64,000 nt of DNA from Gemmatimonadota bacterium. GTDB taxonomy: Bacteria > Gemmatimonadota > Gemmatimonadetes > Gemmatimonadales > Gemmatimonadaceae. The translations under genes and the position numbers were made by a program. The DNA lies in NCBI GenBank assembly GCA_020161135.1, contig JAIUOB010000002.1:124001-188000 (forward strand). Direction: 5' to 3'. Below, piece after piece: positions 47,922 to 62,499 of this stretch. Positions within the stretch are counted from its first letter, which is position 1; each line of letters begins with the position of its first letter. The notes below the pieces were generated by a model that had not been told where the DNA came from, made no database searches, and was given only the letters and a program-made list of their open reading frames with translations.

Positions 47922-48545
47922 GTGGACATCCCCTCTCGCGCCGACGCCCTCCGGCTGGTCCAGGACTGGACCGCCTCCGAATCCCTCCGCAAGCACATGC
48001 TGGCGGTGGAATGCGCCATGCGCGCCTATGCGACGCGCCTCGGGGAGGATGTGGAGCGGTGGGGGCTGGCCGGTCTGATCCACGATTTCGACTACGAGCG
48101 CTTCCCGAACGACGCGCAGGCGGCCGACGCCGAGCATCCGGCGGAGGGGGTCCGACACCTGCGTGCGTTGGGGTGGCCCGAGGACGTGTGCACGGCGGTG
48201 CTGGGCCACGCGCACTACACGGGCGTGCCGCGCGAGACGCGCATGGCACAGGCGCTGTTCGCGGTGGACGAACTGACCGGGTTGATCACGGCCTGCGCGC
48301 TGGTGAAGCCGTCCAAGGCGGTGCGCGACGTGGACGTGCCCGGCGTGCGCAAGAAGATGAAGGACAAAGCATTTGCCCGAGGTGTCAATCGGGACGACAT
48401 CGTGCAGGGGGCGGAGGCGCTCGGCGTCCCCCTCGACGAGCACATCGCGGTGGTCCTGACGGCCATGCAGGGAGACGCCGCGGCACTCGGACTGGCGGGT
48501 GTGGCGCCATCGTCCCCCTCAACGGGTCCGGACGGGGATGCGTAA
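47922..48545 (+). CDS. HD-domain protein
   Basis: A 207-residue protein starting with GTG at 47922. The HD metal-binding pair is in GLIHDFDYERFP, preceded by KHMLAVECAMRAYA (first His). A later GHAHYTG and DELTGLI complete the pattern of the small HD hydrolases. Such proteins are phosphohydrolases on nucleotides or similar compounds. CACAAT lies 9 nt before the GTG and is a weak -10 candidate. The ECF sigma gene follows by 74 bp on the same strand. The substrate is unknown. Confidence 0.82.
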   Translation: MDIPSRADALRLVQDWTASESLRKHMLAVECAMRAYATRLGEDVERWGLAGLIHDFDYERFPNDAQAADAEHPAEGVRHLRALGWPEDVCTAVLGHAHYTGVPRETRMAQALFAVDELTGLITACALVKPSKAVRDVDVPGVRKKMKDKAFARGVNRDDIVQGAEALGVPLDEHIAVVLTAMQGDAAALGLAGVAPSSPSTGPDGDA

Positions 48546-48619
48546 CGACAGTGCACCCACCCACCAACGTGACGGTCATCGCCCTTCCCCTTCCAGCCGC
48601 GCCGACAACGGGTTCCCGC

Positions 48620-49183
48620 ATGGGGACTGATCGACCGTTGTCGCCCGAGGCGCTGGAGGAGCGCGGGTTGGTGCTCGCCGCGCAGGCCGGGGACAGTGTG
48701 GCCTTCGCGGGGTTGGTCCGCCGGCATCAGCGGCGGGCTTACGCGGTGGCCCGCGCGATCGTCCTGTCACACGACGATGCCGAGGATGCGGTGCAGGAGG
48801 GGTTCCTCCATGCGTTCCGCGCGCTCGAGCGGTTCCGTCCGGAGCAGGCCTTCGGGGCGTGGCTGCATCGCATCGTGGCCAACGCCGCGCTGGACATCGC
48901 GCGGCGTCGCAAGGTCCGCGATGCGGACGAGTTGCCGGAGACGCTGTCGTCGCCGCATCGCGATCCGGCGGAGTCGGATGAACTGCGCGCACGGTTGATG
49001 CGCGCGTTGGACACGCTCGGCGAACGGCAGCGCGCCGTCATCGTGCTGCACGACGTCGAGGGATACAAGCACGCGGAAATCGGCGCCATGCTCGGCATTC
49101 CCGAGGGCACGGCGCGGTCGGATCTGCATCATGCACGGGCGCATCTCAGGCGCCAGTTGAGCAACCTTCGGAGCGAACGATGA
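48620..49183 (+). CDS. RNA polymerase sigma factor, ECF type
   Basis: A 187-residue sigma-70 family protein with only regions 2 and 4. Region 2 covers about residues 28-95 (FAGLVRRHQRRAYAVARAIV, DAEDAVQEGFLHAF, WLHRIVANAALDIARRRK) and region 4 about 125-180 (LGERQRAVIVLHDVEGY, EIGAMLGIPEGTARSDLHHA). It would direct RNA polymerase to a small regulon, probably including this operon. The next gene overlaps it by 4 bases and encodes a membrane protein in the place of an anti-sigma factor. An upstream GTG at 48551 is an alternative start. Confidence 0.93.
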   Translation: MGTDRPLSPEALEERGLVLAAQAGDSVAFAGLVRRHQRRAYAVARAIVLSHDDAEDAVQEGFLHAFRALERFRPEQAFGAWLHRIVANAALDIARRRKVRDADELPETLSSPHRDPAESDELRARLMRALDTLGERQRAVIVLHDVEGYKHAEIGAMLGIPEGTARSDLHHARAHLRRQLSNLRSER

Positions 49184-49608
49184 GCACGCGGAACGACGAC
49201 GGGCGCAGCCCGGGCGCGGATCCCGAAGTCACGCGACTGCTGCAGGCGCACTATGCGCCGCCGGTAGACGCGGCGTACTGGAGCGGGCTGGAGCAGCGCA
49301 TGCTCCAGCGCCTCTCGACAGCCATGCAGGAGACGGTGCTCCGCCCCTCGTGGTGGAGTGGCTTTGCCGAGCTGCGTCCCGCCGACTGGCGCACCGCCGG
49401 CCTGGTGGCGGCCACGCTGGCGCTGCTGGCCGCTGGAGCCACCTTCGTGCGCGATCGCGCGGCCGACGCGCATGCGCGGGACATCGCGGCGCGCGCGGCA
49501 GTGGAAGCGGCCATGCCGCTCCCCATCGACGACGCGACGCTGTCGCGGGCACGCCCGCACCTTCCGGCCGACGCGCCGGAACGGTACCTGAATCCCCTCG
49601 ACTACTGA
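49180..49608 (+). CDS. Probable membrane anti-sigma factor
   Basis: A 142-residue single-pass protein. Residues 1 to about 70 face the cytoplasm and are helical (VTRLLQAHYAPPVDAAYWSGLEQRML). A hydrophobic segment spans about residues 72-90 (TAGLVAATLALLAAGATFV), and a periplasmic tail of 50 residues follows. There is no zinc-type HxxxCxxC motif. Translational coupling to the sigma gene (ATGA) and the topology point to an anti-sigma factor; direct sequence evidence is weak. Confidence 0.6.
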   Translation: MSTRNDDGRSPGADPEVTRLLQAHYAPPVDAAYWSGLEQRMLQRLSTAMQETVLRPSWWSGFAELRPADWRTAGLVAATLALLAAGATFVRDRAADAHARDIAARAAVEAAMPLPIDDATLSRARPHLPADAPERYLNPLDY

Positions 49609-49615
49609 GCGTGCG

Positions 49616-50014
49616 GTGACGAGCACTCCCCGCCCCAAATCGCTCGCGATGCTGTCGCTGATCGGCGCCTTCCTCCTGGGAGGCGCCTTGGGCTTTGGGG
49701 CCGATCGCGCCATGGCCACGCCCGAGCCGCCGCGTCCGGCGGACGAGCGCACGATGCGCACCGAACTCGGGCGAGAGCTCTCGCTGCGCCCCGAGCAGCA
49801 GGTGATCGTCGACAGCGCCTGGGCCTGGCGGCGCCGGCGATACGGCGAGATCATGGCGCCGGTCAAGCCGCAACTCGACGCGGCGCGCGACAGCATGCGC
49901 GCCCTCATCATGAACACGCTCGACTCGAGTCAGCAGGAGGCGTTCCGCCGCCTGATCGAGCGCCAGCAGCGCGCCGCCGACAGTTCGGCCCGCGCACGAG
50001 GGGATATCAAGTGA
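49616..50014 (+). CDS. Spy/CpxP/CnrX-like periplasmic sensor or chaperone
   Basis: A 132-residue protein with GTG start. Residues 10-33 form a membrane segment or uncleaved signal. Behind it is an all-helical domain with the pattern of the heavy-metal-resistance/Spy family: LSLRPEQQVIVDSAWAWRRRRYGEI, then AARDSMRALIMNTLDSSQQEAFRRLIERQ. In CnrX-type proteins this domain senses metals and signals to an anti-sigma factor. Here there is no histidine or cysteine at all, so metal binding by the known ligands is unlikely. It overlaps the TolC gene by 4 bases. Confidence 0.72.
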   Translation: MTSTPRPKSLAMLSLIGAFLLGGALGFGADRAMATPEPPRPADERTMRTELGRELSLRPEQQVIVDSAWAWRRRRYGEIMAPVKPQLDAARDSMRALIMNTLDSSQQEAFRRLIERQQRAADSSARARGDIK

Positions 50015-51378
50015 CGCGTTCGATCTTCCGGCCCCGTGCGCATGCGCGCGGGGCCGTCTCGCTCATGGCCGGCGTCCTGGCTTCGGCCTCTTCCGCGGCG
50101 GCGCAGTCGCCCGTGCCACTCCCCGACGACAACGCGCGAGCGGTGACGCTGGCGGAGGCGGTGCAGATGGCGCAGCGCAACGCGCCGGCGGTAGTGAACG
50201 CGCGCGGCCTCGAGCGCAACGCGGGAGCCGCCCGGCGCGCGGCGATTGCCGCCTACATCCCGTCGCTCAACCTCACCGCGTCGAGCGCGCGGACGCAGGG
50301 CGTGCAGTTCTTCCAGGGACAGCTGGTGCCGCTCACCGGCAACCCGTGGAACTACAACAACGGCCTCGCCACGCAGCTCGTGCTCTTCGATGGTGGGCAG
50401 CGCTGGCAGGACCTCAACCGCGCCAAGGCATCACAGCACGTCGCAGAGGCGTCGTTCCTGTCGGCCCGCTTCGACGCCGCGCTGCAGGTGAAGCAGCAGT
50501 ACTACGCGGCACTCGCCGCACGCGAGTCGGAAGCCGCGGCGCGCGCGCAGCTCGAGCAGGCTGAGCAGCAGCTCAAGGCCTCCACGGCCCGGGTGGCCGC
50601 CGGCGTGGCCATCAAGTCGGACTCGCTGCGCTCAGCCATTCAGGTGGGCAACGCGCGCCTCGCCGTCCTCACGGCCCAGAACGACCTGCGCGTCGCCAAT
50701 GCCGCGCTCACGCGCGTGGTGGGCTCCACCACCACCGTCACCGCGACGCCCGGCGACTCGCTCGACACGCCGCTCCAGCTCCCCACCGAGCAGGAACTCG
50801 AGACGCTCGTCGCCCAGGGCCCAGCGGTCCTGCTCGCCGAGGCTAACGTCGCCTCGGCGCGCGCGTCCAAGAAGGCACAGCGCTCGCAGTACCTGCCCAC
50901 GCTCTCGATGTCGTACAACTACTCGTACACGCAGAGCTCGAAGGCCTTCACGGGCGGCAACCTGTTCCTGCTCGGCGGGAACGATCCGAACCGCCAGAAC
51001 ATGTCGTTCAACTTCTCGTACCCGCTGTTCAACCAGTTCACGCGCGAGCAGGCCACGGTGCAAGCTGATGTCGGGCTGGTGAACGCCGAGGCGCAACTGC
51101 GCGACGCCAAGCTGGCCGCGCGGGCGAACCTCACCGCGCAGCTGCGGTCACTGGCCAACGCGCAGGCGCGCGTGCAGGTGCAACTCGCCGCCATCGCGGC
51201 GGCCGAGGAGGACCTGCGCGTGCAGCAGCAGCGCTACGGCCTCGGCGCGTCGACGTTGCTCGACCTGCTCACCAGCCAGACCACGCTCAACCAGGCGCGG
51301 CAGGCGCTCATCCAGGCGCGCTTCGACGGGCGCATCGCGCGCGCGCAACTCTCCGCGCTCGTCGGCCGGGAGCTCTGA
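50011..51378 (+). CDS. TolC family outer-membrane efflux protein
   Basis: A 455-residue outer-membrane factor. The GTG start at 50011 overlaps the previous stop, and the signal peptide ends near residue 33 (SSAAAQ). The repeated OEP pattern is seen twice: AVTLAEAVQMAQRNAPAVVN then long coiled-coil helices, and EQELETLVAQGPAVLLAEAN then the second helical hairpin, ending in GASTLLDLLTSQTTLNQARQ. It would form the exit duct of a tripartite pump together with the adaptor and permease downstream. The adaptor ATG overlaps its stop by one base. Confidence 0.93.
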   Translation: MTRSIFRPRAHARGAVSLMAGVLASASSAAAQSPVPLPDDNARAVTLAEAVQMAQRNAPAVVNARGLERNAGAARRAAIAAYIPSLNLTASSARTQGVQFFQGQLVPLTGNPWNYNNGLATQLVLFDGGQRWQDLNRAKASQHVAEASFLSARFDAALQVKQQYYAALAARESEAAARAQLEQAEQQLKASTARVAAGVAIKSDSLRSAIQVGNARLAVLTAQNDLRVANAALTRVVGSTTTVTATPGDSLDTPLQLPTEQELETLVAQGPAVLLAEANVASARASKKAQRSQYLPTLSMSYNYSYTQSSKAFTGGNLFLLGGNDPNRQNMSFNFSYPLFNQFTREQATVQADVGLVNAEAQLRDAKLAARANLTAQLRSLANAQARVQVQLAAIAAAEEDLRVQQQRYGLGASTLLDLLTSQTTLNQARQALIQARFDGRIARAQLSALVGREL

Positions 51379-52910
51379 TGTCCATGCGCATCGACGTCCG
51401 CCCGCTCGCGCTGGCCGCCCTCGTGGCGCTCGGCGCGTGCAAGAAGCCGGCGGCCGCGCCGCCGACCATCGGGGTCGTGACCGTCGATCGACGCACCATC
51501 GTCGTCGATGCGCAGGCCACCGGGGCGGTGGAGCCCATCAACGTCATCGAAGTGAAGTCGAAGGCCTCCGGACAGATCGTGAAGATCCCCGTCGAGACGG
51601 GCACGCTGGTCAGTGCCGGCGACCTCCTCGTGCAAGTCGACACGCGGGACGTGAAGAACCAGTACGACCAGGCCATGGCCGACCTGCGCAGCGCGCAGGC
51701 CAACCTCGAGGTGGCCGAGGCGAACAAGAAGCGGTCGGACGAGCTCTTCAAGACGCGCATCATCACGACGCCGGAGTACGAGGCCGCAGAGCTGCAGCTC
51801 ACGCAGGCGCAGGGTGCGATCGTGCGCGCCACCACCAATGTCGACCTCGCCAAGCAGCGGCTCGAGGACGCGACCGTCATCGCGCCGGTGAGTGGCACGA
51901 TCATCGAGAAGCCGGTCTCGCTCGGCCAGGTCATCGCGTCGGCGACGGGCTCGGTGTCCGGGGGCACGACGCTGCTCAAGATGGCCGACCTGACCAAGGT
52001 CCGCATGCGTGCACTCGTGAACGAAACCGACATCGGCAGCGTGAAGTCCGGCCAGTCGGCGCGGGTCACCGTCGATGCGTATCCCGAGCGCCCCTTCCAG
52101 GGCACGGTGGAAAAGATCGAGCCGCAGGCCGTGGTGCAGCAGAGCGTCACGATGTTCCCGGTCATCATCTCCCTCGACAATCGTGAGGGCTTCCTCAAGC
52201 CCGGCATGAACGGGGAAGTGTCGATGCTCGTCGAGCGCCGCGAGAACGTGGTGGCGGTGTCGAACGATGCCGTGCGCACGTTGCGCGAGGCGGCCATCGC
52301 GGCCTCGCTGGTGGGGCTCGACCCCGACAGCGTGCAGGCCATGGTGCGTGAGCAGCAGGCCGCGATGGGCGGCGGGCGCACGGGCGGGGGCGCGAGCGGT
52401 GCGCCGGCCGGCGCCGGCCGAGGCGCGGATGCGCCGCCGTCACAGTCGGTGGCGGTGGGTGGCGGCGAGTCAGCCGGCCGTGGACGCAGCGGCAGCGGCG
52501 GCGCGGCGACGAGCGGTGGCGCGCCGCGCGCCGGTGGTGGCACCGGGGCCAGTGGTCGCGCGATGGGCGCCGGCATGGGCGGTGGCGCGCCGGGCGGCAG
52601 CTCCATCCGCACACGCACCGCGCTGGTGTTCGTGCAGGAAGGTGGCAAGTTCGCGCCGCGCATCGTGCGTCTGGGCGCCGCCAACTACGACTACTCCGAG
52701 GTCATCTCGGGGCTCAAGGAAGGCGAGAAGGTCGCGACACTCAACGTGGCCTCCCTCCAGGCGCGCCGTGACCAGCAGAATGACCGCTTCCGCAACATGG
52801 GCGGCGGCGGCATGCCGGGCATGACGCCGCCCGGTGGCGGGGGCGCCCGCGCTGGCGGCGGTGGGGCTGCGGGTGGTGGTGGCGGCCGCCCGGGCGGCGG
52901 GGGCATCTGA
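51378..52910 (+). CDS. MacA-like periplasmic adaptor with long Gly/Ala-rich insert
   Basis: A 510-residue lipoprotein adaptor (lipobox LGAC, Cys21). The HlyD-type core is clear: GAVEPINVIEVKSKASGQI, GTLVSAGDLLVQVDTRD, a helical hairpin, and VIAPVSGTIIEKPVSLGQ. Between the membrane-proximal parts, residues about 330-415 are an unusual low-complexity stretch of Gly, Ala, Arg and Ser, and the last 40 residues are nearly pure Gly/Ala/Pro. Standard MacA has about 370 residues. The adaptor would link the TolC protein to the inner-membrane permease 1 bp downstream. Confidence 0.9.
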   Translation: MSMRIDVRPLALAALVALGACKKPAAAPPTIGVVTVDRRTIVVDAQATGAVEPINVIEVKSKASGQIVKIPVETGTLVSAGDLLVQVDTRDVKNQYDQAMADLRSAQANLEVAEANKKRSDELFKTRIITTPEYEAAELQLTQAQGAIVRATTNVDLAKQRLEDATVIAPVSGTIIEKPVSLGQVIASATGSVSGGTTLLKMADLTKVRMRALVNETDIGSVKSGQSARVTVDAYPERPFQGTVEKIEPQAVVQQSVTMFPVIISLDNREGFLKPGMNGEVSMLVERRENVVAVSNDAVRTLREAAIAASLVGLDPDSVQAMVREQQAAMGGGRTGGGASGAPAGAGRGADAPPSQSVAVGGGESAGRGRSGSGGAATSGGAPRAGGGTGASGRAMGAGMGGGAPGGSSIRTRTALVFVQEGGKFAPRIVRLGAANYDYSEVISGLKEGEKVATLNVASLQARRDQQNDRFRNMGGGGMPGMTPPGGGGARAGGGGAAGGGGGRPGGGGI

Positions 52911-52911
52911 C

Positions 52912-54135
52912 ATGCTGTACGCCGAAGTCATCCGCGTGGCGCTCGGTGCGCTGCGAGCGAACAAGCTGCGCTCCGTCCTCACGATGCTCGGCATCGTGAT
53001 TGGGGTCGGCGCGGTCATCGCGATGGATGGCATCGGCCGGGGCGCGCAGGTGGCCATCAAGGACCGCATCACGGCCCTCGGCACCACGCTGCTGACCGTG
53101 ACGCCGGGACAGATTCGCGGCATGGGGGGCGTGGCCGCCGAAGCCGATCGCGCGCGGCTCACGATGAACGATGCCGCCGCGCTGGACGAGCAGGCCACGA
53201 TGCTCCGCGCCGTGCAGCCTGAGATGTCGCGGCAACTGCAGATCCAGTTCAACGCGAAGAACGCGAGCACGCAGGTGGTGGGCACCACCTCGAACTACCT
53301 CGACGTGCGCAAGTACGAGCTGCAGGGCGGGCGCATGTTCACGTCGCAGGAGGACATCGGCAAGCAGCGCCTCGCGGTGCTGGGCCCTGCCGTCCTCGAG
53401 AACCTCGGCGTGACCAACCCCGAGGCGATCATCGGGGAGAGCGTGCGCATTCGCGGCATCCAGTTCCAGGTGGTCGGGGTGCTCAAGTCGAAGGGGCAGA
53501 CCTCGCCCTTCCAGAACCCCGACGATCAGATCCTCATCCCGCTCAACACCGCGCGGTTCCGCGTGCTCGGCACTGACCGCGTCCGCTCCATCTCGGTGCT
53601 GGCCGAGTCGGAGGAGAAGATCCCCGAGGCGATGGCGGAGATCCAGAAGATCCTGCGCCGTGAGCATCGACTGGCGCGTGAGCGCGAGGATGACTTCACG
53701 ATTCGCAACCAGGCCGACTTCCTCACGACCTTCGCCGAGACGAGCAAGGTGTTCGGCTCGCTGCTGGCGGGCATCGCGGCCGTGTCGCTGGTGGTGGGCG
53801 GCATCGGCATCATGAACATCATGCTGGTCTCGGTCACGGAGCGCACGCGCGAGATCGGCGTGCGCAAGGCGCTGGGCGCGACGGGGAACAACATCCTCTT
53901 CCAGTTCCTGATCGAGGCGATCGTGCTGTGCCTGCTGGGGGGCGCGATCGGCATCGCGGTGGGCAGCGGCGGAGCGATGGCGCTGAGCAAGATCTTCCAG
54001 TGGAACACCGCGATCAGCTCGCAGTCGGTCATCCTCGCCTTTGCCTTCTCGGCCGCGGTCGGCCTGGTGTTCGGCGTCTGGCCGGCACGGCGGGCCGCCA
54101 AGCTCGACCCGATTCAGGCGTTGCGGTACGAGTAG
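52912..54135 (+). CDS. MacB/FtsX-type ABC transporter permease without ATPase
   Basis: A 407-residue membrane protein. The first segment (RSVLTMLGIVIGVGAVIAMD) is followed by a MacB periplasmic core domain of about 220 residues (GTTSNYLDVRKYELQGGRMF, VVGVLKSKGQ) and the three-segment FtsX domain (VVGGIGIMNIMLVSVTERTR, EIGVRKALGATG, LDPIQALRYE). It lacks the N-terminal ATP-binding domain of MacB, and no ABC ATPase gene lies on either side. A LolD/MacB-like ATPase must come from elsewhere. The gene starts one base after the adaptor stop. Confidence 0.92.
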   Translation: MLYAEVIRVALGALRANKLRSVLTMLGIVIGVGAVIAMDGIGRGAQVAIKDRITALGTTLLTVTPGQIRGMGGVAAEADRARLTMNDAAALDEQATMLRAVQPEMSRQLQIQFNAKNASTQVVGTTSNYLDVRKYELQGGRMFTSQEDIGKQRLAVLGPAVLENLGVTNPEAIIGESVRIRGIQFQVVGVLKSKGQTSPFQNPDDQILIPLNTARFRVLGTDRVRSISVLAESEEKIPEAMAEIQKILRREHRLAREREDDFTIRNQADFLTTFAETSKVFGSLLAGIAAVSLVVGGIGIMNIMLVSVTERTREIGVRKALGATGNNILFQFLIEAIVLCLLGGAIGIAVGSGGAMALSKIFQWNTAISSQSVILAFAFSAAVGLVFGVWPARRAAKLDPIQALRYE

Positions 54136-54216: not shown

Positions 54217-56337
54217 ATGCCAAACGAACCGACATCCACAGGCGCGCCGCACGCGGCGTCCCCTGACGACCCCGGCGCTGCACGCGCCGATGCGACCGGC
54301 GGCGAGCCGGCGTCTTCCGACGCCCCCAGCGACGACCCGCCGAGTCCGCAACGATCGACGCCGGCCACGGGAGCGGCCGGCACCGAGTTCCGCGCCACGA
54401 CCGCGATGTTCCCCGTCGAGGCGCGCACCTCCAGCCACCACCCGGAATCGCACCCCACCGGCAAGCGACTCGCGATCCTGACGCTCACGGCGCTCGGGGT
54501 GGTGTACGGCGACATCGGCACCTCGCCGCTGTACTCGCTCAAGGAGTGCTTCAGTCCGTTGTACGGGCTGCAGCCCACGCGCGAGAATGTGTTCGGCATT
54601 CTCTCCCTGATGGTGTGGGCGCTCACGCTGGTGGTGACCGTCAAGTACGTCGCCTACATCCTGCGGGCCGACAATCGCGGTGAAGGCGGCACCTTCGCGC
54701 TGCTGGCGCTGATCTTCCCGAAGGGCACGCCGACCGGCATGGCGCGAGGTGGCATCCTCGTGGCCCTCGCCCTCTTCGGCACGGCGTTGCTGTACGGCGA
54801 CGGCATCATCACGCCGGCCATGAGCGTGCTGGGCGCCATGGAAGGGCTCGAGATCGCGCTGCCGCGACTCGCCGACTACATCGTGCCCATCACGCTGGTC
54901 ATCCTCGCGACGCTGTTCCTCGCGCAGCGTTTCGGCACCGACCTGGTGGGGAAGGCGTTCGGCCCCATCATGCTGGTGTGGTTCACCGTCATCGGCCTGC
55001 TTGGCCTCAACGAGCTGCGCCACTCGCCGTGGATCCTCGGCGCCGTGAACCCGATGTACGCGGTGCACTTCATGCAGGCGCACGGCGCACTCAGCTTCTT
55101 CGTGCTCGGCTCGGTGGTGCTGGTGATCACCGGCGGCGAGGCGCTGTATGCGGACATGGGACACTTCGGCCGGCGCCCCATTCGTGTGGCGTGGCTCATC
55201 ATGGTGTTCCCGTCGCTGCTGCTCAACTACTTCGGGCAGGGTGCGCTGCTGGTGCGCTTTCCGGAGGCGGCGGAGAATCCGTTCTTCCTACTCGCGCCGC
55301 GCGCCTTCCTCATCCCGCTGCTGGTCATCGCGACGCTGGCCGCGATCGTGGCGTCACAGGCGATGATCTCCGGGGCATTCTCGGTGACCCGCCAGGGTAT
55401 CGCGCTCGGCTTCATCCCGCGCCTCGAGATCCGCCACACCTCGAAGGTCGAGGAGGGGCAGATCTACATCCCCGAGGTGAACTGGTTCATCGCGGTCGGC
55501 TGCCTCATCATCGTCGTCGCGTTCCGCAACACCTCGGCGCTGGGCGCGGCGTACGGCATCGCCGTCACGGGTACGATGCTCATCACGAGCATCCTGTTCT
55601 ATGTGGTCGCGCGCATCCGCTTCCGCTGGGAGTGGTGGCAGGCGGCGCTGTTGACCTCCCTGTTCATCGTCGTCGACCTGGCCTTCTTCAGTGCCAACGT
55701 CGTGAAGTTCCTGCACGGTGGCTGGGTGCCGATGGCGCTGGGCGTCGTGCTCTTCGTCCTGATGCTCACCTGGAAGCGGGGACGCCTGCTGCTCAACCAG
55801 CGGCTGGCCGAGGGCACGATGCCCCTCCAACTGTTCCTGGACGGCGTCGAGAAGTCGGCCGTGCATCGCGTGCCCGGCACCGCGGTTTTCATGACCGGCA
55901 GCGACGACGGCGTGCCCCCTGTGCTGCTGCATCACCTCAAGCACAACAAGGTGCTGCACGAACGCGTGCTGCTGGTCTCGGTGAAGACCGCCGACGTGCC
56001 GGAGACGAGCCCCGGCGAGCGTGTGCGGGTGCTGCCGCTGGGCCACGGCTTCTGGCGCGTGATCGCGTCGTACGGCTTCATGCAGTCGCCCAACGTGCCG
56101 CAGGTACTCGAGGTGGTCGACCACATGGGCATCCGTGCCAAGCCGATGGAGACGAGCTACTTCCTGGGCCGTGAGCGGCTCATTCCGGTCACGCGCCCGT
56201 CCACCGACCGCGTCTCGATGGGACGGTGGCGCAAGATCATCTTCGCGATCATGGCGCGGAACGCGCGTTCGGCCACGGAGTTCTTCAACATCCCGCCCAA
56301 CCGCGTCGTGGAGCTGGGCACGCAGATCGAGTTCTGA
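54217..56337 (+). CDS. kup: Kup family potassium:proton symporter
   Basis: A 706-residue low-affinity potassium uptake protein. The hallmark GVVYGDIGTSPLYSLKE starts near residue 94, and about 12 membrane segments follow, including LYGDGIITPAMSVLGAMEGL and GGEALYADMGHFGRRPIRVAW. The C-terminal 200 residues are cytoplasmic. The first 80 residues are Pro/Ala/Ser/Thr-rich, longer than in E. coli Kup (622 residues), and possibly disordered. It has its own promoter-like box and ends before a strong hairpin, so it is probably a single-gene unit. Confidence 0.96.
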   Translation: MPNEPTSTGAPHAASPDDPGAARADATGGEPASSDAPSDDPPSPQRSTPATGAAGTEFRATTAMFPVEARTSSHHPESHPTGKRLAILTLTALGVVYGDIGTSPLYSLKECFSPLYGLQPTRENVFGILSLMVWALTLVVTVKYVAYILRADNRGEGGTFALLALIFPKGTPTGMARGGILVALALFGTALLYGDGIITPAMSVLGAMEGLEIALPRLADYIVPITLVILATLFLAQRFGTDLVGKAFGPIMLVWFTVIGLLGLNELRHSPWILGAVNPMYAVHFMQAHGALSFFVLGSVVLVITGGEALYADMGHFGRRPIRVAWLIMVFPSLLLNYFGQGALLVRFPEAAENPFFLLAPRAFLIPLLVIATLAAIVASQAMISGAFSVTRQGIALGFIPRLEIRHTSKVEEGQIYIPEVNWFIAVGCLIIVVAFRNTSALGAAYGIAVTGTMLITSILFYVVARIRFRWEWWQAALLTSLFIVVDLAFFSANVVKFLHGGWVPMALGVVLFVLMLTWKRGRLLLNQRLAEGTMPLQLFLDGVEKSAVHRVPGTAVFMTGSDDGVPPVLLHHLKHNKVLHERVLLVSVKTADVPETSPGERVRVLPLGHGFWRVIASYGFMQSPNVPQVLEVVDHMGIRAKPMETSYFLGRERLIPVTRPSTDRVSMGRWRKIIFAIMARNARSATEFFNIPPNRVVELGTQIEF

Positions 56338-56480: not shown

Positions 56481-59400
56481 TCAGTCGCCCGCCAAGGGCA
56501 CCGGATCGAGCGAGGACTCGCGCGCGGGCGCTGCGGCGGCCGCCGCGCGATACCGACGACGGTTCGCGAGCCGATCGAGGTAGGTGTACACGACCGGCGT
56601 GACGTAGAGCGTGATGAGCTGCGAGAAGGCGAGGCCGCCGACGACCGCGAGGCCAAGCGGCTGGCGCGACTCGCCACCGGCACCGTACCCCACGGCGATG
56701 GGGAGCGTGCCCATGAGCGCCGCCATCGTCGTCATCATGATGGGGCGGAAGCGCACGCGCGCCGCCTCGACGATGGCCTCCGCCGGCGCCATGCCGTCCT
56801 TGCGCTCGGCATCGATCGCGAAGTCGATCATCATGATGGCGTTCTTCTTCACCAGGCCGATGAGCATGATGACGCCGACGTAGGCGTACACGCTCAGGTC
56901 CTTGCCGAAGAGCATGAGCGTCGCGAGCGCGCCCACGGCGGCGAACGGCAGGCCCGAGAGGATCGTGAGCGGATGCACGAAGCTCTCGTACAGGATGCCG
57001 AGCACCATGTAGATGACGAAGATCGCGACGACCAGCAGGGCGAGGAGCCCGCTCTGTGCCTGCGCGAACGCCTGCGTTTCGCCGCTCAGCACCGCCGTCA
57101 CGCTGGACGGCAGCACTGCGGCCGCCTCGCGCTGCACGGCGTCGACCGCGGTGCCCAGGGCCACGTCGGGACGCGTGTTGAACGAGATGGACACCGCAGG
57201 CTGCTGTCCGTTGTGCTGCACCGACACCGGCCCGACGCCCTTCGAGAAGCTGGCGACCGACCCGAGGTTCACGAGGTTGCCGGTGTTGCCACGCACGAAG
57301 AGCTGGCTGAGCGCCGCGGGATCGCGCTGGTACTGCGGCAGCAGTTCGAGGATGACCTGGTACTGGTTGGTCTGCGTGAAGATCGTCGAGACCTGCCGCT
57401 GTCCGTAGGAGCTGTAGAGCGCGTTCTCGAGCTGGCTGGCCGTGACGCCCAACGCCGACGCGCGCTCGCGGTCGATGACCACACCCACCTGCGGGTTGCC
57501 CACCTGCAGGTCACTCGAAATGTTCTCGAGCTCGGGGAGTTCCCGCATGCGCTGCTCGAGGGCGCGCGCCGAGGTGTAGAGCTCGGCGATGTCGCTGCCC
57601 TGCAGGGAGACGCTGTAGGCGCTGTTGCCGCGGCGTCCGCCGATGTTGATCGGCGGCGGGTTGCGGAAGAACACCTGCACTCCCGGCACCTGCGAGGTGG
57701 CGCGGGTGAGCTCGCGCATGACCTGGTCGACGTGCGGGCGCTTGTCGCGATCGGCGAGGGTGAGCTGGATGCGGCCGCTGTTGCTGCCACCGCCCGGCCC
57801 ACCGCCGATGCTCATGAGCGCGAACTTCACGTTCGGGTTGTCGGAGAGGATCTTGCCGACCTCGCGCACCTTGACCGCCAGCGCGTCGTAGCCGATGCCC
57901 TCGGGGCCTTCGACACTGCCCTGCAGGCGGCCCGTGTCCTCCGACGGAATGAAGCCCTTCGGGATGACCATGAAGAGCACCACCGTCGCGACGAGCATCA
58001 GGAAGCTGAAGAGCATCGTGAGCCCGCGGTGCCGCATGACCCAGCCAAGCGACGACATGTAGCCGCGCTCCGAGGCCTGGTAGAGGCGCTCCACCGAGCG
58101 CCAGGCGCCCTTCTCGTCGCCGCCATGGTGGCCCTCACCGCCCTTCAGGAACTTGGCGGCCAGCATGGGCGTGAGGGTGAGCGACACGAAGCCCGACACG
58201 AGGATCGCGACACCGATGGTGACGGCGAACTCGCGGAAGAGGCGGCCGACGAGCCCCGGCATGAACAGCAGCGGGATGAACACCGCCACCAGCGACAGGG
58301 TCATCGACAGGATCGTGAAGCTGATCTCCTTCGAGCCGTCGAGCGCGGCGCGGAGCGGCTTCTTTCCCATCTCCATGTGACGCACGATGTTCTCGAGCAT
58401 CACGATGGCATCGTCGACGACGAAGCCCACGGCCAGCGTAAGCGCCATGAGCGACAGGTTGTCGAGCGAGTAGTCGAGCACCCACATGATGCAGAAGGTG
58501 CCGACGATCGAGAACGGCAGCGCCAGCGACGGGATGATCGTCGCACGGGCGTTGCGCAGGAACAGGAAGATGACGAGCACGACCAGCGCGACGGTCAGCA
58601 GCAGCGTGAACTGGACGTCGTCGACCGAGTGCTGGATGCTCTCCGAGCGGTCGAAGATGGTGGTGACCTGCACGCTGGGCGGCAACTGCGGGATGAGCTT
58701 CTCCATCTCCGCCTTGACGCCGTTGGCCGTGGCCACGGTGTTCACGCCCGGCTGGCGGATGACCGCCAGCGAGATGTTGGCGCGGCCATTGAGCTCGGAC
58801 ATGCCGCGCATGTTCTGCAGGCCGTCGAAGACGTTGCCGAGGTCGCCGAGACGCACCGGCACGCCGTTGCGGTTGGCCACCACCAACTGACGGAACTCAG
58901 CCGCGTTCTTGAGCTGGCCGTTGGCCTGCAGCGTGAAGGACTGGTTGGGGCCCATCAGCACGCCGGCCGGCGAGTTGGAATTGCCGGTGTTGATGGCCTG
59001 CTGCACTTCGTCGATGCCGATGCCGCGCTGCGCGAGCGCCGCGGGGTCGAGCTGCACGCGCACGGCGAACTTGGCCGAGCCGAACACCTGCACCTGCGCG
59101 ACGCCCGTGACCGTGCTGAGGCGCTGCGCGATGAAGGTCTCGGCGTACTCGTTCAGCTCCGTGCGCGAGAGCACGTCGGAGTTGAGCGAGAACATGATGA
59201 TCGGCGCGTCGGCGCCGTTGGCCTTGTTGTATGACGGCGGATTGATGCCCTGGGGGAGCTGCCGCAGCGTCTTCGAGATGGCGGACTGCACGTCGGCCGC
59301 CGCCTTGTCGATGTCACGATCGAGGTTGAACTGGATCGTGACGTTCGTGTTCCCCTGCGAGCTCGACGACGTGATGTTGTCGATGCCGGAGATGGTCGAG

Positions 59401-59687
59401 AACGACTGCTCGAGCGGCGTGGCCACCGAGGTCGCCATGACCTCCGGGCTCGCACCCGGCATGCCGGCCGACACGGTGATCGTCGGGTAGTCGATCGTGG
59501 GGAGGTCGCTCACCGCGAGGGAGCGATACGCCACCACACCGAAGACGAGGATCCCCAGCATCACCAGCGTCGTCATGACCGGACGCCGGATCCAGATCTC
59601 GCTGATGTTCGTGGACGTCCCGGGGGTCGGTTCGTCGTCCGACGGCCCGCCCTGCATGCCCTGTCCGCCCTGCACGCCTGCGCTCAT
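56481..59687 (-). CDS. RND efflux permease (HAE1/MdtB-C-like)
   Basis: A 1068-residue inner-membrane proton antiporter with twelve membrane segments and two large periplasmic loops. The N-terminus has FGVVAYRSLAVSDLPTIDYP and ITVSAGMPGASPEVMATSV, the wording of the MdtB/MdtC branch. The proton-relay pair is in LAVGFVVDDAIVMLEN of segment 4. Sequence near the C-terminus (MIGLVKKNAIMMIDFAI) is typical. It pumps drugs or other small molecules. It overlaps the adaptor gene by 4 bases. No TolC gene is next to it; the one at 50011 could serve. Confidence 0.96.
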   Translation of the reverse strand: MSAGVQGGQGMQGGPSDDEPTPGTSTNISEIWIRRPVMTTLVMLGILVFGVVAYRSLAVSDLPTIDYPTITVSAGMPGASPEVMATSVATPLEQSFSTISGIDNITSSSSQGNTNVTIQFNLDRDIDKAAADVQSAISKTLRQLPQGINPPSYNKANGADAPIIMFSLNSDVLSRTELNEYAETFIAQRLSTVTGVAQVQVFGSAKFAVRVQLDPAALAQRGIGIDEVQQAINTGNSNSPAGVLMGPNQSFTLQANGQLKNAAEFRQLVVANRNGVPVRLGDLGNVFDGLQNMRGMSELNGRANISLAVIRQPGVNTVATANGVKAEMEKLIPQLPPSVQVTTIFDRSESIQHSVDDVQFTLLLTVALVVLVIFLFLRNARATIIPSLALPFSIVGTFCIMWVLDYSLDNLSLMALTLAVGFVVDDAIVMLENIVRHMEMGKKPLRAALDGSKEISFTILSMTLSLVAVFIPLLFMPGLVGRLFREFAVTIGVAILVSGFVSLTLTPMLAAKFLKGGEGHHGGDEKGAWRSVERLYQASERGYMSSLGWVMRHRGLTMLFSFLMLVATVVLFMVIPKGFIPSEDTGRLQGSVEGPEGIGYDALAVKVREVGKILSDNPNVKFALMSIGGGPGGGSNSGRIQLTLADRDKRPHVDQVMRELTRATSQVPGVQVFFRNPPPINIGGRRGNSAYSVSLQGSDIAELYTSARALEQRMRELPELENISSDLQVGNPQVGVVIDRERASALGVTASQLENALYSSYGQRQVSTIFTQTNQYQVILELLPQYQRDPAALSQLFVRGNTGNLVNLGSVASFSKGVGPVSVQHNGQQPAVSISFNTRPDVALGTAVDAVQREAAAVLPSSVTAVLSGETQAFAQAQSGLLALLVVAIFVIYMVLGILYESFVHPLTILSGLPFAAVGALATLMLFGKDLSVYAYVGVIMLIGLVKKNAIMMIDFAIDAERKDGMAPAEAIVEAARVRFRPIMMTTMAALMGTLPIAVGYGAGGESRQPLGLAVVGGLAFSQLITLYVTPVVYTYLDRLANRRRYRAAAAAAPARESSLDPVPLAGD

Positions 59688-60976
59688 GGAGTCGCTCCTC
59701 CGCCGCCTCGTGGGCCGCGTCCTTCGCCGTTACGACCGCCGTTCTGGCCGCCCCCGTTCTGGCCGCCCCCATTCTGGCCGCCGTTGCGTCCACCACCATT
59801 CCGCCCGCCGCCGTTACGTCCACCGCGCCCGGCGTTGGCCGCTGCGGCGGCTTCTCGCGTCTGCACCGGCGCGCCGTCACGCAGGCGCGTCTGCCCTTCG
59901 GTGATGACCGGTTCGCCACCCACGAGGCCGCTGTCGATCTTCACGACGTCGCCGAACTGCCGGCCGACCTTCACCGGCGTGCGCGCCGCCTTCCCGTCGG
60001 CCAGCAGGTACACGAAGCTCGACGTGCCGGTCGTGACGACGGCCTCCGAAGGAATCGTGACGGCGTCCTGATCGACGCTCAGCTCCAGCGCCACCTGAAC
60101 GAATTGCCCCGGCCACAGCAGGCGGTTCTCGTTGGCCACGCGCGCCTTGAGCAGCACGGTGCCGGTCGCGCGATCGACCTGGTTGTCGACGAACGTCAGC
60201 ACACCCATCACCCGCTGCGCCGAGTCGGCGCCGCCGGGCGTGACCTGCACCGCGAGGGGCTTCTCGAGGCCCGCGCGACGGCGCATCTCCTCGAAGTCCT
60301 TCTCGGGGACGCTGAAGCGCACGAGCACCGGTCGCAGCTCGTTGATGGTGACCAGCTGATCGGTCGACGCGCGCACGAGGGCACCCGCGCGGAAGGGCAT
60401 CTGCCCGGTGCGCCCCGCGATGGGCGCCTTGACGGTGGTGTTCTCGAGATCGAAGCGCGCGCGCGACAGCGACGCCTGCCCGGCCGCGACAGTCGCGGCC
60501 AACGCGGACGCTTCGGCGAAGGCCTGGTCGAGCTGCTGCTTCGTGATGTAGCCATCCTTCGCGAGCGCGGCGAAGCGCGCCGAATCGGCGCGCGCACGCG
60601 CGAGCGTCGCTTCGTCACGCTGCAGCGTGCCCTGCACGCGATCGAGTTCGGCGCGGAACGGGCGCGGATCGATCTGGAAGAGCGTCTGCCCCTGCCGGAC
60701 CTCGTCGCCTTCCTCGATGCCGACGCTCATGATCTGCCCGGACACGAGCGCCTGTACGGCGACCGTGCGGTTGGCTTCGACCTGTCCGTTGGCGATGACG
60801 ATGTACGGAAGCGGGCCCTTGTCCGCGGGCTTCACCGTGACCACGGGCGTGGGGCGCTGCGGGCGCGGCTGCTCCTTGCAGGCGGCGAGGACGAGCAGGG
60901 GCGCGGCGGCACACAGCATCCGGCGCGAGGCGACCAACCAGAGCGCGGAGCGCGCCGGGAACCGATATGGGGACAT
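59684..60976 (-). CDS. RND efflux periplasmic adaptor with NGGG repeats
   Basis: A 430-residue lipoprotein adaptor (lipobox VLAAC near residue 33). The membrane-fusion pattern is there: VEANRTVAVQALVSGQIMSV, EGDEVRQGQTLFQIDPRPF, a hairpin rich in AEASALAATV, and VKAPIAGRTGQMPFRAG. The last 50 residues are a run of RNGGG and QNGGG units with no counterpart in MdtA/AcrA. The start is the ATG at 60976; no -10 box at the leaderless distance was found. The upstream spacer (60977-61196) holds only a terminator hairpin. Confidence 0.93.
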   Translation of the reverse strand: MSPYRFPARSALWLVASRRMLCAAAPLLVLAACKEQPRPQRPTPVVTVKPADKGPLPYIVIANGQVEANRTVAVQALVSGQIMSVGIEEGDEVRQGQTLFQIDPRPFRAELDRVQGTLQRDEATLARARADSARFAALAKDGYITKQQLDQAFAEASALAATVAAGQASLSRARFDLENTTVKAPIAGRTGQMPFRAGALVRASTDQLVTINELRPVLVRFSVPEKDFEEMRRRAGLEKPLAVQVTPGGADSAQRVMGVLTFVDNQVDRATGTVLLKARVANENRLLWPGQFVQVALELSVDQDAVTIPSEAVVTTGTSSFVYLLADGKAARTPVKVGRQFGDVVKIDSGLVGGEPVITEGQTRLRDGAPVQTREAAAAANAGRGGRNGGGRNGGGRNGGQNGGGQNGGGQNGGRNGEGRGPRGGGGATP

Positions 60977-61080
60977 TCGCTGGGCGAACGACGTGGCGAA
61001 GAAAAAGCGCGCCGTCCTCCAGCAGATGGGCGGGCGGCGGCAGCGCAGGTGGGCGGAAGGTATCTGGCAGAATACGGCAA

Positions 61081-61112
61081 CGGAGGGGACAGCGTTGCCG
61101 CCATCCCCTCCG
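61081..61112 (-). terminator. Hairpin terminator after the PDZ gene
   Basis: CGGAGGGGA (61081-61089) pairs perfectly with TCCCCTCCG (61104-61112), with a 14-nt loop. It lies 85 bp beyond the stop of the minus-strand PDZ gene and upstream of the adaptor gene, thus between two transcription units. Confidence 0.5.
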
Positions 61113-61196
61113 TGTACACGTCTGCAGTTCCGGTGTGGCCGCCCCGGACGGCGTCCGAAGAGGCGCCGAACCCGCGCGAGCGTCCGCCCGGCGGCT

Positions 61197-62393
61197 CTAC
61201 AGGATCACCAGCGAGGCCCGGCGGCCGCGGACGGTGGGCGCAGCGGGCGGTGTCGGCAGTGCGCGCCACTCGAAACTGCGCACCCCGTCCCGCACGCCGT
61301 CCTGGATCTGCTGGCGCATGTGCTCCATCACGTCGCGCAGCCGCTCGCTGTCGATGCGCAGCTCCCGCCCGTCCAACTGGATCCGCCCGACCGGCCCCTC
61401 GCGCCCCAGTTCCAGCATCCGCGGCATGCCCATGCCGTCGCCGATCGACATCGAGAAGCCGGTCCGCGGCAGTTCCGACGCCTTGGCGGCCTTCACGGCC
61501 ACGTCCCGGTACCGGCCGTTGCCGTACACCTTGAGCGTGACCGTCGCGCCAGGGGCCGTCTTCTCCACTTCGCGGACGAAGCGCCCGATGCGCGCGGACA
61601 CCGCCTGCGCGTCCTCGAGGTCCTCACGCGGCACCCGGACGTCGACGCCGTTCACCGCCGCGATGCGCTCCCCTTCGACGATTCCGGCCTGCTCGGCCGG
61701 GCCGCCGCCGACGACGCTGCTCAGGAAGAGACCGAGCGTGTCGCGCTTGGAGCCAGAGGCGCCGACGCTCACGCCCACCATGCCGCGGTCACCCGAGCGC
61801 TCGCCCTCGCCCCGCTCGCTGCGCGAACGGACCCGCACGTCGCCGGCGTCACTCATCCGCCGCACTTCGCCGCGCTCGAGCTCCGCCTGCGACACCGTCT
61901 TCACCGCGACCGTGCGCGGCGCCGCCGAGCCCGACCGAACGGAGAGCGTGACCTCGTCGCCGGCCTTCACTTGCGCCAGTGCCCGCTGCAGCCGCCGCTG
62001 CGCGAGCCCCGCGAGAGCGAGGTCCTCGGCGTCCTCCTTCGCCACGCGCAGGCTGATGCCGTTGATCTGCGTGAGCACGTCGCCGGCCTTGAGCCCCGCC
62101 TTGGCGGCCGGGCTGTTCGCGTCGACCTCCTCGAGCCGGATGCCGGCGGTGTCCGCCCGCGAGCCGGGCGCCATGACAACGCCCAGCACGGCGCGGTCGG
62201 CGCTGCGCGTGTAGACCGTCGCCATGCCACCAGGCGGCGTGCGAATGATGCGCACGTCGGGCGACTGGGCGCGCGCGGCGGCTGGCGCGAGGGCGAGCAG
62301 GGCGGCGGGAGCGAGCGCCAAGACAACGAATCGGGTCGCGGTCGCGGCCGCGGTCGCGCGACGATACGGGGTATGCATGGGAAGCGCCTTCAT
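61197..62393 (-). CDS. Exported protein with two PDZ domains
   Basis: A 398-residue protein. A signal peptide covers about residues 1-43 (ending ARAQ), taking ATG 62393 as start. PDZ domain one is at about residues 65-155 (VDANSPAAKAGLKAGDVLTQ), and PDZ two at about 210-315 (GGPAEQAGIVEGERIAAVNG). Neither a trypsin-like nor a S41 catalytic domain is seen. The C-terminal 70 residues carry charged segments (RELRIDSERLRDVMEHM). It is likely a periplasmic binding protein, perhaps a partner of a protease; the function is unknown. ATG 62378 is also possible. Confidence 0.78.
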   Translation of the reverse strand: MKALPMHTPYRRATAAATATRFVVLALAPAALLALAPAAARAQSPDVRIIRTPPGGMATVYTRSADRAVLGVVMAPGSRADTAGIRLEEVDANSPAAKAGLKAGDVLTQINGISLRVAKEDAEDLALAGLAQRRLQRALAQVKAGDEVTLSVRSGSAAPRTVAVKTVSQAELERGEVRRMSDAGDVRVRSRSERGEGERSGDRGMVGVSVGASGSKRDTLGLFLSSVVGGGPAEQAGIVEGERIAAVNGVDVRVPREDLEDAQAVSARIGRFVREVEKTAPGATVTLKVYGNGRYRDVAVKAAKASELPRTGFSMSIGDGMGMPRMLELGREGPVGRIQLDGRELRIDSERLRDVMEHMRQQIQDGVRDGVRSFEWRALPTPPAAPTVRGRRASLVIL

Positions 62394-62499
62394 GGGTCCG
62401 TGTCCTCGGATGGCTGCAGGATGGCTGCAGGGCTGCAGGGTGGAACGATGCCCATCCGACACGGGGGTGGCGGCCGAGGGTTTCCCTGCCCCGCCGGAC

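Follow-up and report, generated by a model that had tools for sequence, protein, structure and literature searches.

A conserved ECF sigma factor operon of Gemmatimonadota encodes a putative envelope-stress efflux system with a MacB-type permease and no ATPase gene

Results

The window analyzed here is a 64,000-nucleotide stretch (G000:C7:124001-188000) of the 4.5 Mb genome of a soil bacterium of the Gemmatimonadota, with a completeness of 93.6%. It carries on its + strand an operon of six intact genes, which code in this order for an extracytoplasmic function (ECF) sigma factor, a membrane antagonist, a Spy-like periplasmic protein, a TolC-family channel, a periplasmic adaptor and a MacB-type permease. 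This operon is real, conserved and well organised, and as a whole it is best explained as an autoregulated envelope-stress efflux operon whose ATPase would be supplied in trans, a reading to which we assign a probability of about 0.6. Its general kind, i.e., ECF-controlled tripartite efflux, is already known, while the missing motor and the zinc-less antagonist are unusual. No description of this operon type was found in the open-access literature searched, the specialist ECF-group classification lying outside that search.

A six-gene order built around a three-gene core

At all five junctions, neighbouring genes overlap by at most 4 bp or are at most 7 bp apart: the sigma and antagonist genes overlap by 4 bp (ATGA), 7 bp separate the antagonist and Spy-like genes, the Spy-like and TolC genes overlap by 4 bp and the TolC and adaptor genes by 1 bp, and a single base pair lies between adaptor and permease. 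The initial annotation of this DNA, which had described six co-directional genes with tight junctions, is therefore borne out, and neither sigma-70 promoters nor terminators were seen when looked for on the coding strand inside the operon.

The antagonist is the most specific protein of the operon. Its orthologs are present in 81 of 249 genomes of the phylum, and all 81 belong to the family of the window, which is represented by 87 genomes. Gene order was counted in a sample of 40 family loci fetched with their flanks. Sigma factor, antagonist and Spy-like protein are contiguous in all 40, TolC follows this trio in 35, and the complete six-gene order, which the initial annotation had proposed to look for across the phylum, is found in 27. 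Seven further loci end at TolC (one of them at a contig end), five consist of the trio only, and the remaining one is truncated at the edge of its contig. The six-gene arrangement is far above chance; the constancy of the trio and the variability of the pump indicate that the trio is the core, and that adaptor and permease form an output which is often present but can be dispensed with. Related trios can also be identified by profile searches in further families of the phylum, two of which (f2 and f5) have operons of seven genes, with homologs of all six proteins and, in addition, a MacB-type ATPase.

A conserved promoter upstream of the sigma gene

The sigma gene (48569..49183, + strand) encodes a 204-residue ECF protein of the sigma2-sigma4 type (Pfam Sigma70_r2, E 2e-19; Sigma70_r4_2, E 2e-17), whose nearest solved chains include SigE, RpoE and CnrH, the first two scoring above CnrH (4cxf, E 2e-16). 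Its start had initially been placed at ATG 48620, which is probably internal. GTG 48569 is most likely the true start, because the N-terminus of the relatives begins there (VTVIALPLP... in the window, and (V/M)T-(A/V/S)-(I/V/L)-A-L-P as the type among orthologs) and because it lies 24 nt downstream of the predicted promoter.

Alignment of the family loci gives a promoter consensus upstream of the sigma gene, [C/T]CAAC[G/A]-N16-CGT, with mostly A or T as the next base; the window's site (48519..48544, + strand) reads TCAACG-N15-GCGTA, with CAAC-N17-CGT as its core. Within 190 nt upstream of the sigma gene, the motif is present with identical spacing in 35 of 36 family loci; in 100 rounds of dinucleotide shuffles it appeared in 0.16 loci on average and never in more than 2. 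A conserved site of this type immediately in front of the sigma gene is what an autoregulated ECF module would have, and the operon's own sigma factor would be the one to read it. In the window, the -10 part shares bases with the stop codon that ends the preceding HD-domain gene. The promoter overlaps this stop codon in the window's genus, and in other genera it sits within a longer intergenic gap, which points to selection on the promoter site and not on coding sequence. The same core and spacing occur near the sigma start in six of seven sister-family loci, and the homologous f2 operons share the promoter core.

The strict form TCAAC-N16-GCGTA has two matches in the window's genome, one of them at this operon, as against seven for a reversed control pattern, and it is not commoner than that control in the four genomes of the genus tested (2-7 matches per genome). 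Across these four genomes, strict matches precede a gene that is shared as an ortholog only at the operon's sigma gene. Given this, and the two matches in the genome, the sigma factor looks self-dedicated to its own operon. The suggestion to look for an ECF motif shared between this operon and other sites yielded the region upstream of the sigma gene, and elsewhere the strict matches in these four genomes gave no orthologous shared target. These data also bear on whether the pump is a mere passenger of a sigma factor that mainly controls genes elsewhere. The five loci that retain only the trio would be accommodated by such an arrangement, but strict promoter matches are essentially limited to the operon itself and no other downstream gene is common as an ortholog, so we consider it unlikely.

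A zinc-less putative anti-sigma factor and a Spy-like protein

The antagonist (49180..49608, + strand) matched no Pfam or NCBIfam family. It is predicted to have two cytosolic helices (residues ~15-25 and 31-51), one transmembrane (TM) segment (~72-90) and a short periplasmic tail, its N-terminal half carries the motifs YWxxLExRIM and WW, conserved among orthologs, and its structure model is of moderate confidence (mean predicted local distance difference test, pLDDT, 69). The HxxxCxxC zinc motif of class I (zf-HC2) anti-sigma factors is present in none of 40 orthologs. Adjacency, co-conservation and topology support its designation as a putative anti-sigma factor. CnrY, which embraces its sigma factor with two helices (PMC4598750) and is classed as a class II anti-sigma factor (PMC7406223), likewise has two short cytosolic helices and one TM segment, as predicted for the antagonist, although a sequence relationship between the two was looked for and not detected.

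The third gene (49616..50014, + strand) encodes a predicted periplasmic helical protein, probably of the Spy/CpxP-like LTXXQ/Metal_resist superfamily. The window copy matches Metal_resist weakly (0.04) and does not match PF07813 at E<0.1; among 37 orthologs, LTXXQ (PF07813, E<0.1) is detected in 23 and Metal_resist in 10. A profile search of the PDB places Spy first (E 0.0016), with CnrX not among the matches listed. The structure model consists of an anchor helix followed by four helices (pLDDT >90 over the core), and the family shares two conserved LxxxQ motifs. The hydrophobic N-terminus contains invariant G22, G26 and R31 (G22xxxG26...R31), which suggests that the protein keeps an N-terminal membrane anchor. 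Conserved His/Glu/Met ligands such as those of CnrYXH are absent: His and Cys are both lacking in the window's protein, and the alignment of 38 orthologs has no column with His above 13% or Cys above 16%. Without conserved metal ligands, and being closest to Spy and not to CnrX, this protein is unlikely to sense metals.

A true CnrYXH-like metal switch, in which Ni, Co, Cu or Zn would be bound by the periplasmic protein and exported, as the metal or a metal complex, by the pump, agrees with the three-part layout, the Metal_resist matches among orthologs, the presence of CnrH among the solved sigma relatives and the resemblance of the antagonist model to the two helices and single TM segment of CnrY (PMC4598750, PMC7406223). 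It is nevertheless very improbable in view of the missing ligands, the ranking of Spy in the PDB search and an output that is not an RND (resistance-nodulation-division) metal pump.

Spy itself is induced by Cpx/Bae, and the Spy-like protein could correspondingly be a sigma-induced chaperone effector and not a sensor, the antagonist sensing through its own periplasmic tail or being cut by a protease. That the chaperone Spy is the closest solved relative and that both LxxxQ motifs are conserved would suit such a role. However, the Spy-like gene is always third, directly after the antagonist gene, even in the five pump-less loci, and the conserved hydrophobic anchor with its small-residue motif is more than a signal peptide. 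This constant position next to the antagonist, whether or not the pump has been lost, fits a regulatory partner, and an effector role appears somewhat unlikely.

A MacB-type permease without a motor of its own

The last three genes encode a TolC-family outer membrane channel (50011..51378, + strand; OEP, 2.3e-47; type_I_sec_TolC, 2.5e-48), a periplasmic adaptor of the MacA/HlyD/RND-MFP family (51378..52910, + strand; RND_mfp TIGR01730, 192.7 bits against a cut-off of 94.9; HlyD_D23, 3e-24), which scores 85.9 bits against the MacA model, under its cut-off of 342, and a permease with four TM segments (52912..54135, + strand). In the adaptor, a long insert (~residues 330-415) is rich in Gly, Ala and Arg and the C-terminal tail is rich in Gly; orthologs range from 496 to 651 aa. 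The permease matches MacB_PCD (4e-46) and FtsX (9e-20) in Pfam, and is not the RND metal efflux output of CnrCBA. In the PDB it matches MacB (3e-61, starting at MacB residue 276), the MacB proteins of three species being aligned from about residue 256-276 on, i.e., with their ATPase domain excluded. It thus has the periplasmic core of MacB and an FtsX-type TM domain with the helix that contacts the nucleotide-binding domain (NBD), as in MacAB-TolC. The NBD-contact segment, TERTREIGVRKALGA, is almost invariant among 28 orthologs and occupies the place of the major coupling helix of MacB, between TM2 and TM3 (PMC5985334). Across the family, permease identity is 61-87%.

MacAB-TolC systems have an ATPase that is fused or co-encoded, whereas neither an ATP-binding domain nor an ATPase gene was found in this operon, which leaves the permease of the 'pump' with no motor encoded beside it. 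An ATP-binding cassette (ABC) ATPase was searched for near the operon in the window's genome and by tblastn at the 40 family loci, with none detected in either case, and the genes in the downstream gap of relatives, checked for a hidden ATPase, are other open reading frames (several PadR-like by eye). The proposal of a MacA/MacB-type output, as opposed to a metal RND pump, is accordingly incomplete: the MacB_PCD/FtsX permease, an adaptor and TolC are there, and the ATPase is missing from the operon family-wide. By contrast with the window's family, a MacB-type ATPase lies between TolC and adaptor in all eight f2-type loci tested and in all four complete f5 loci (presence was scored by tblastn, a motif regular expression having missed the f5 ATPases); families f4, f7 and f9 lack such an ATPase at this place in the loci tested. 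An ATPase tree built to tell loss from gain did not separate the deep forks; loss or replacement of the operonic ATPase in the window's family is likely.

The near invariance of the segment that would contact the ATPase suggests that this enzyme probably reaches the permease in trans, and a MacB-type permease with a separate ATPase is known from YknYZ (PMC4887032). The best candidate partner is most likely the ATPase at C2:137.5k of the same genome, which shares 71-73% identity with the ATPase of the f2 operons, while the genome's remaining ATPases reach 53% or less. It sits in a TolC-adaptor-ATPase cassette with five permeases after it, a cassette type also present in six other family genomes examined. 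The four other best-scoring ATPases of the genome (C5:83.6k, C3:586k, C1:263k and C3:527k) include three beside a MacB-type permease of their own, and no orphan MacB/LolD-type ATPase is evident in this genome. The number of tandem MacB permeases in the candidate's cassette (G000:C2:134600-144700, with a single MacB-type ATPase) varies from two to seven in relatives. Two more tandem MacB-type permeases lie at G000:C5:764646-766612, where no MacB-type ATPase was found adjoining.

Permease, adaptor and TolC might alternatively no longer be driven by ATP and form a vestigial or passive gate, or have taken on a sensing role. The absence of the ATPase from all 40 family loci and the loss of adaptor and permease from six loci of one genus are in line with this, but the family-wide identity of the permease and its nearly invariant NBD-contact segment would not be needed by a de-coupled protein. 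Moreover, at least one MacB-type ATPase is present in 86 of 87 family genomes, the sole exception being a genome of low completeness. We regard an ATP-free function as decidedly unlikely.

Flanking genes

Upstream of the operon lies a syntenic HD-domain gene (47952..48545, + strand; PF01966, 3.8e-08), which is probably outside the switch. A gene for a Kup-type potassium transporter (54217-56337) follows downstream in most relatives, often with a PadR-like gene in between; it was rejected as an operon member because other genes separate it from the operon in many relatives and because it persists at loci that no longer have the pump. An AcrB-type RND pump with its adaptor, followed by a PDZ-domain protein (56481-62462, - strand), adjoins the operon.

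Discussion

In the mechanism that we propose, the ECF sigma factor would be held at the inner membrane at rest by the single-TM antagonist, while the membrane-anchored Spy-like protein would probe the periplasm, its ligand being either a toxic amphiphile or protein that is unfolded. Ligand binding might alter the contact between Spy-like protein and antagonist via their periplasmic and TM helices, and the freed sigma factor would bind its promoter at 48519-48544 and amplify the whole operon by positive feedback. TolC, adaptor and permease would form a tripartite complex through which the offending molecule, an envelope-damaging compound or misfolded protein, would leave the periplasm by mechanotransmission, the mode of action of MacB (PMC5985334). 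The required ATPase would come in trans, most likely from the genome's second cassette, which codes for TolC, adaptor, ATPase and permeases.

Several observations weigh against this scheme. Sigma-antagonist binding, the signal and the ATPase-permease pairing are all deduced from sequence, and Foldseek searches of the PDB with the models of the antagonist and of the Spy-like protein gave no significant match. In 12 of 40 loci (one of them at a contig border) adaptor and permease are missing beside the trio, which implies that the switch can exist independently of the pump. In one sister-family genome (L110), trio and pump genes point away from each other, and the motif was not found in the gap. 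Finally, among five unlinked pump cassettes, a promoter site upstream of tolC is found only in L120, about 155 nt away. This TolC-adaptor-permease cassette with its CAAC-N17-CGT site (G159, 5453) lies on a different contig from the sigma, antagonist and Spy-like genes.

The more far-reaching statement, that throughout the family an ECF switch made of a zinc-less antagonist and a metal-independent Spy-like sensor drives a MacB permease which has lost its ATPase and borrows that of another exporter, is put forward tentatively, its odds being below even. If true, stress would couple a motor that the cell already has to a new permease and a new exit duct. The operon offers a compact and conserved model in which a Spy-type protein might provide an ECF sigma factor with metal-independent sensing, and in which a mechanotransmission ABC permease could persist after loss of its ATPase gene from the operon. 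The predicted promoter, the candidate partner ATPase and the naturally occurring variants (operons that include the ATPase, loci that lack the pump and loci reduced to the trio) make each step directly testable.

Comparison with known systems

The operon shares with CnrYXH an ECF sigma factor, a small single-TM antagonist, a membrane-anchored helical periplasmic protein and an efflux output with a TolC-type channel. It differs in that CnrYXH has the metal-sensing CnrX and an RND pump, as opposed to a Spy-like protein without conserved metal ligands and an ABC-type permease. The gene order is also unlike, being sigma-antagonist-Spy here and Y-X-H in Cupriavidus metallidurans. Of the CnrYXH-like plan first proposed for this locus, the sigma factor, the putative membrane antagonist and the periplasmic helical protein remain; a sequence link to CnrY was not detected, and the closeness of the periplasmic protein to Spy and the gene order do not fit a copy. 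The likeness is thus partly supported and may serve as a working analogy, not as a copy.

With MacAB-TolC, the operon has in common the MacB_PCD/FtsX permease, the adaptor and the TolC channel, although its permease lacks the fused NBD. Permeases of MacB type that are separate from their ATPase, as here, are found in YknWXYZ of Bacillus, which protects against a peptide toxin, and in Spr0693-0695 of Streptococcus pneumoniae (PMC4887032, PMC5768738). Both systems, unlike the window operon, have the ATPase within the dedicated system. We know of no Spy-like/anti-sigma cassette in either of these operons.

Beyond the phylum, comparison with the 80 loci whose permeases are nearest, drawn from a collection of titled genomes, revealed similar layouts in two metagenome-assembled genomes (MAGs). 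The Methylomirabilis MAG (L187, Methylomirabilota) has a sigma factor, a membrane anti-sigma factor with HxxxCxxC, a Spy-like protein, TolC, an adaptor, a separate ATPase and a permease, and the Elusimicrobia MAG (L151, Elusimicrobiota) has a sigma factor, a zf-HC2 anti-sigma factor, a Spy-like protein, TolC and two ATPase-permease fusions. A MAG labelled Candidatus Eisenbacteria (L143, VBOT01000077.1) carries a permease 65% identical to that of the window in the order ATPase-TolC-adaptor-permease, possibly as a result of mis-binning or transfer. In L187 and L151, the order of control and output genes is like that of the window, whereas the anti-sigma factors are of the zinc type and an ATPase is present. 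These two layouts indicate a recurring architecture, of which the Gemmatimonadota operon is a special form marked by its zinc-less antagonist and its missing ATPase.

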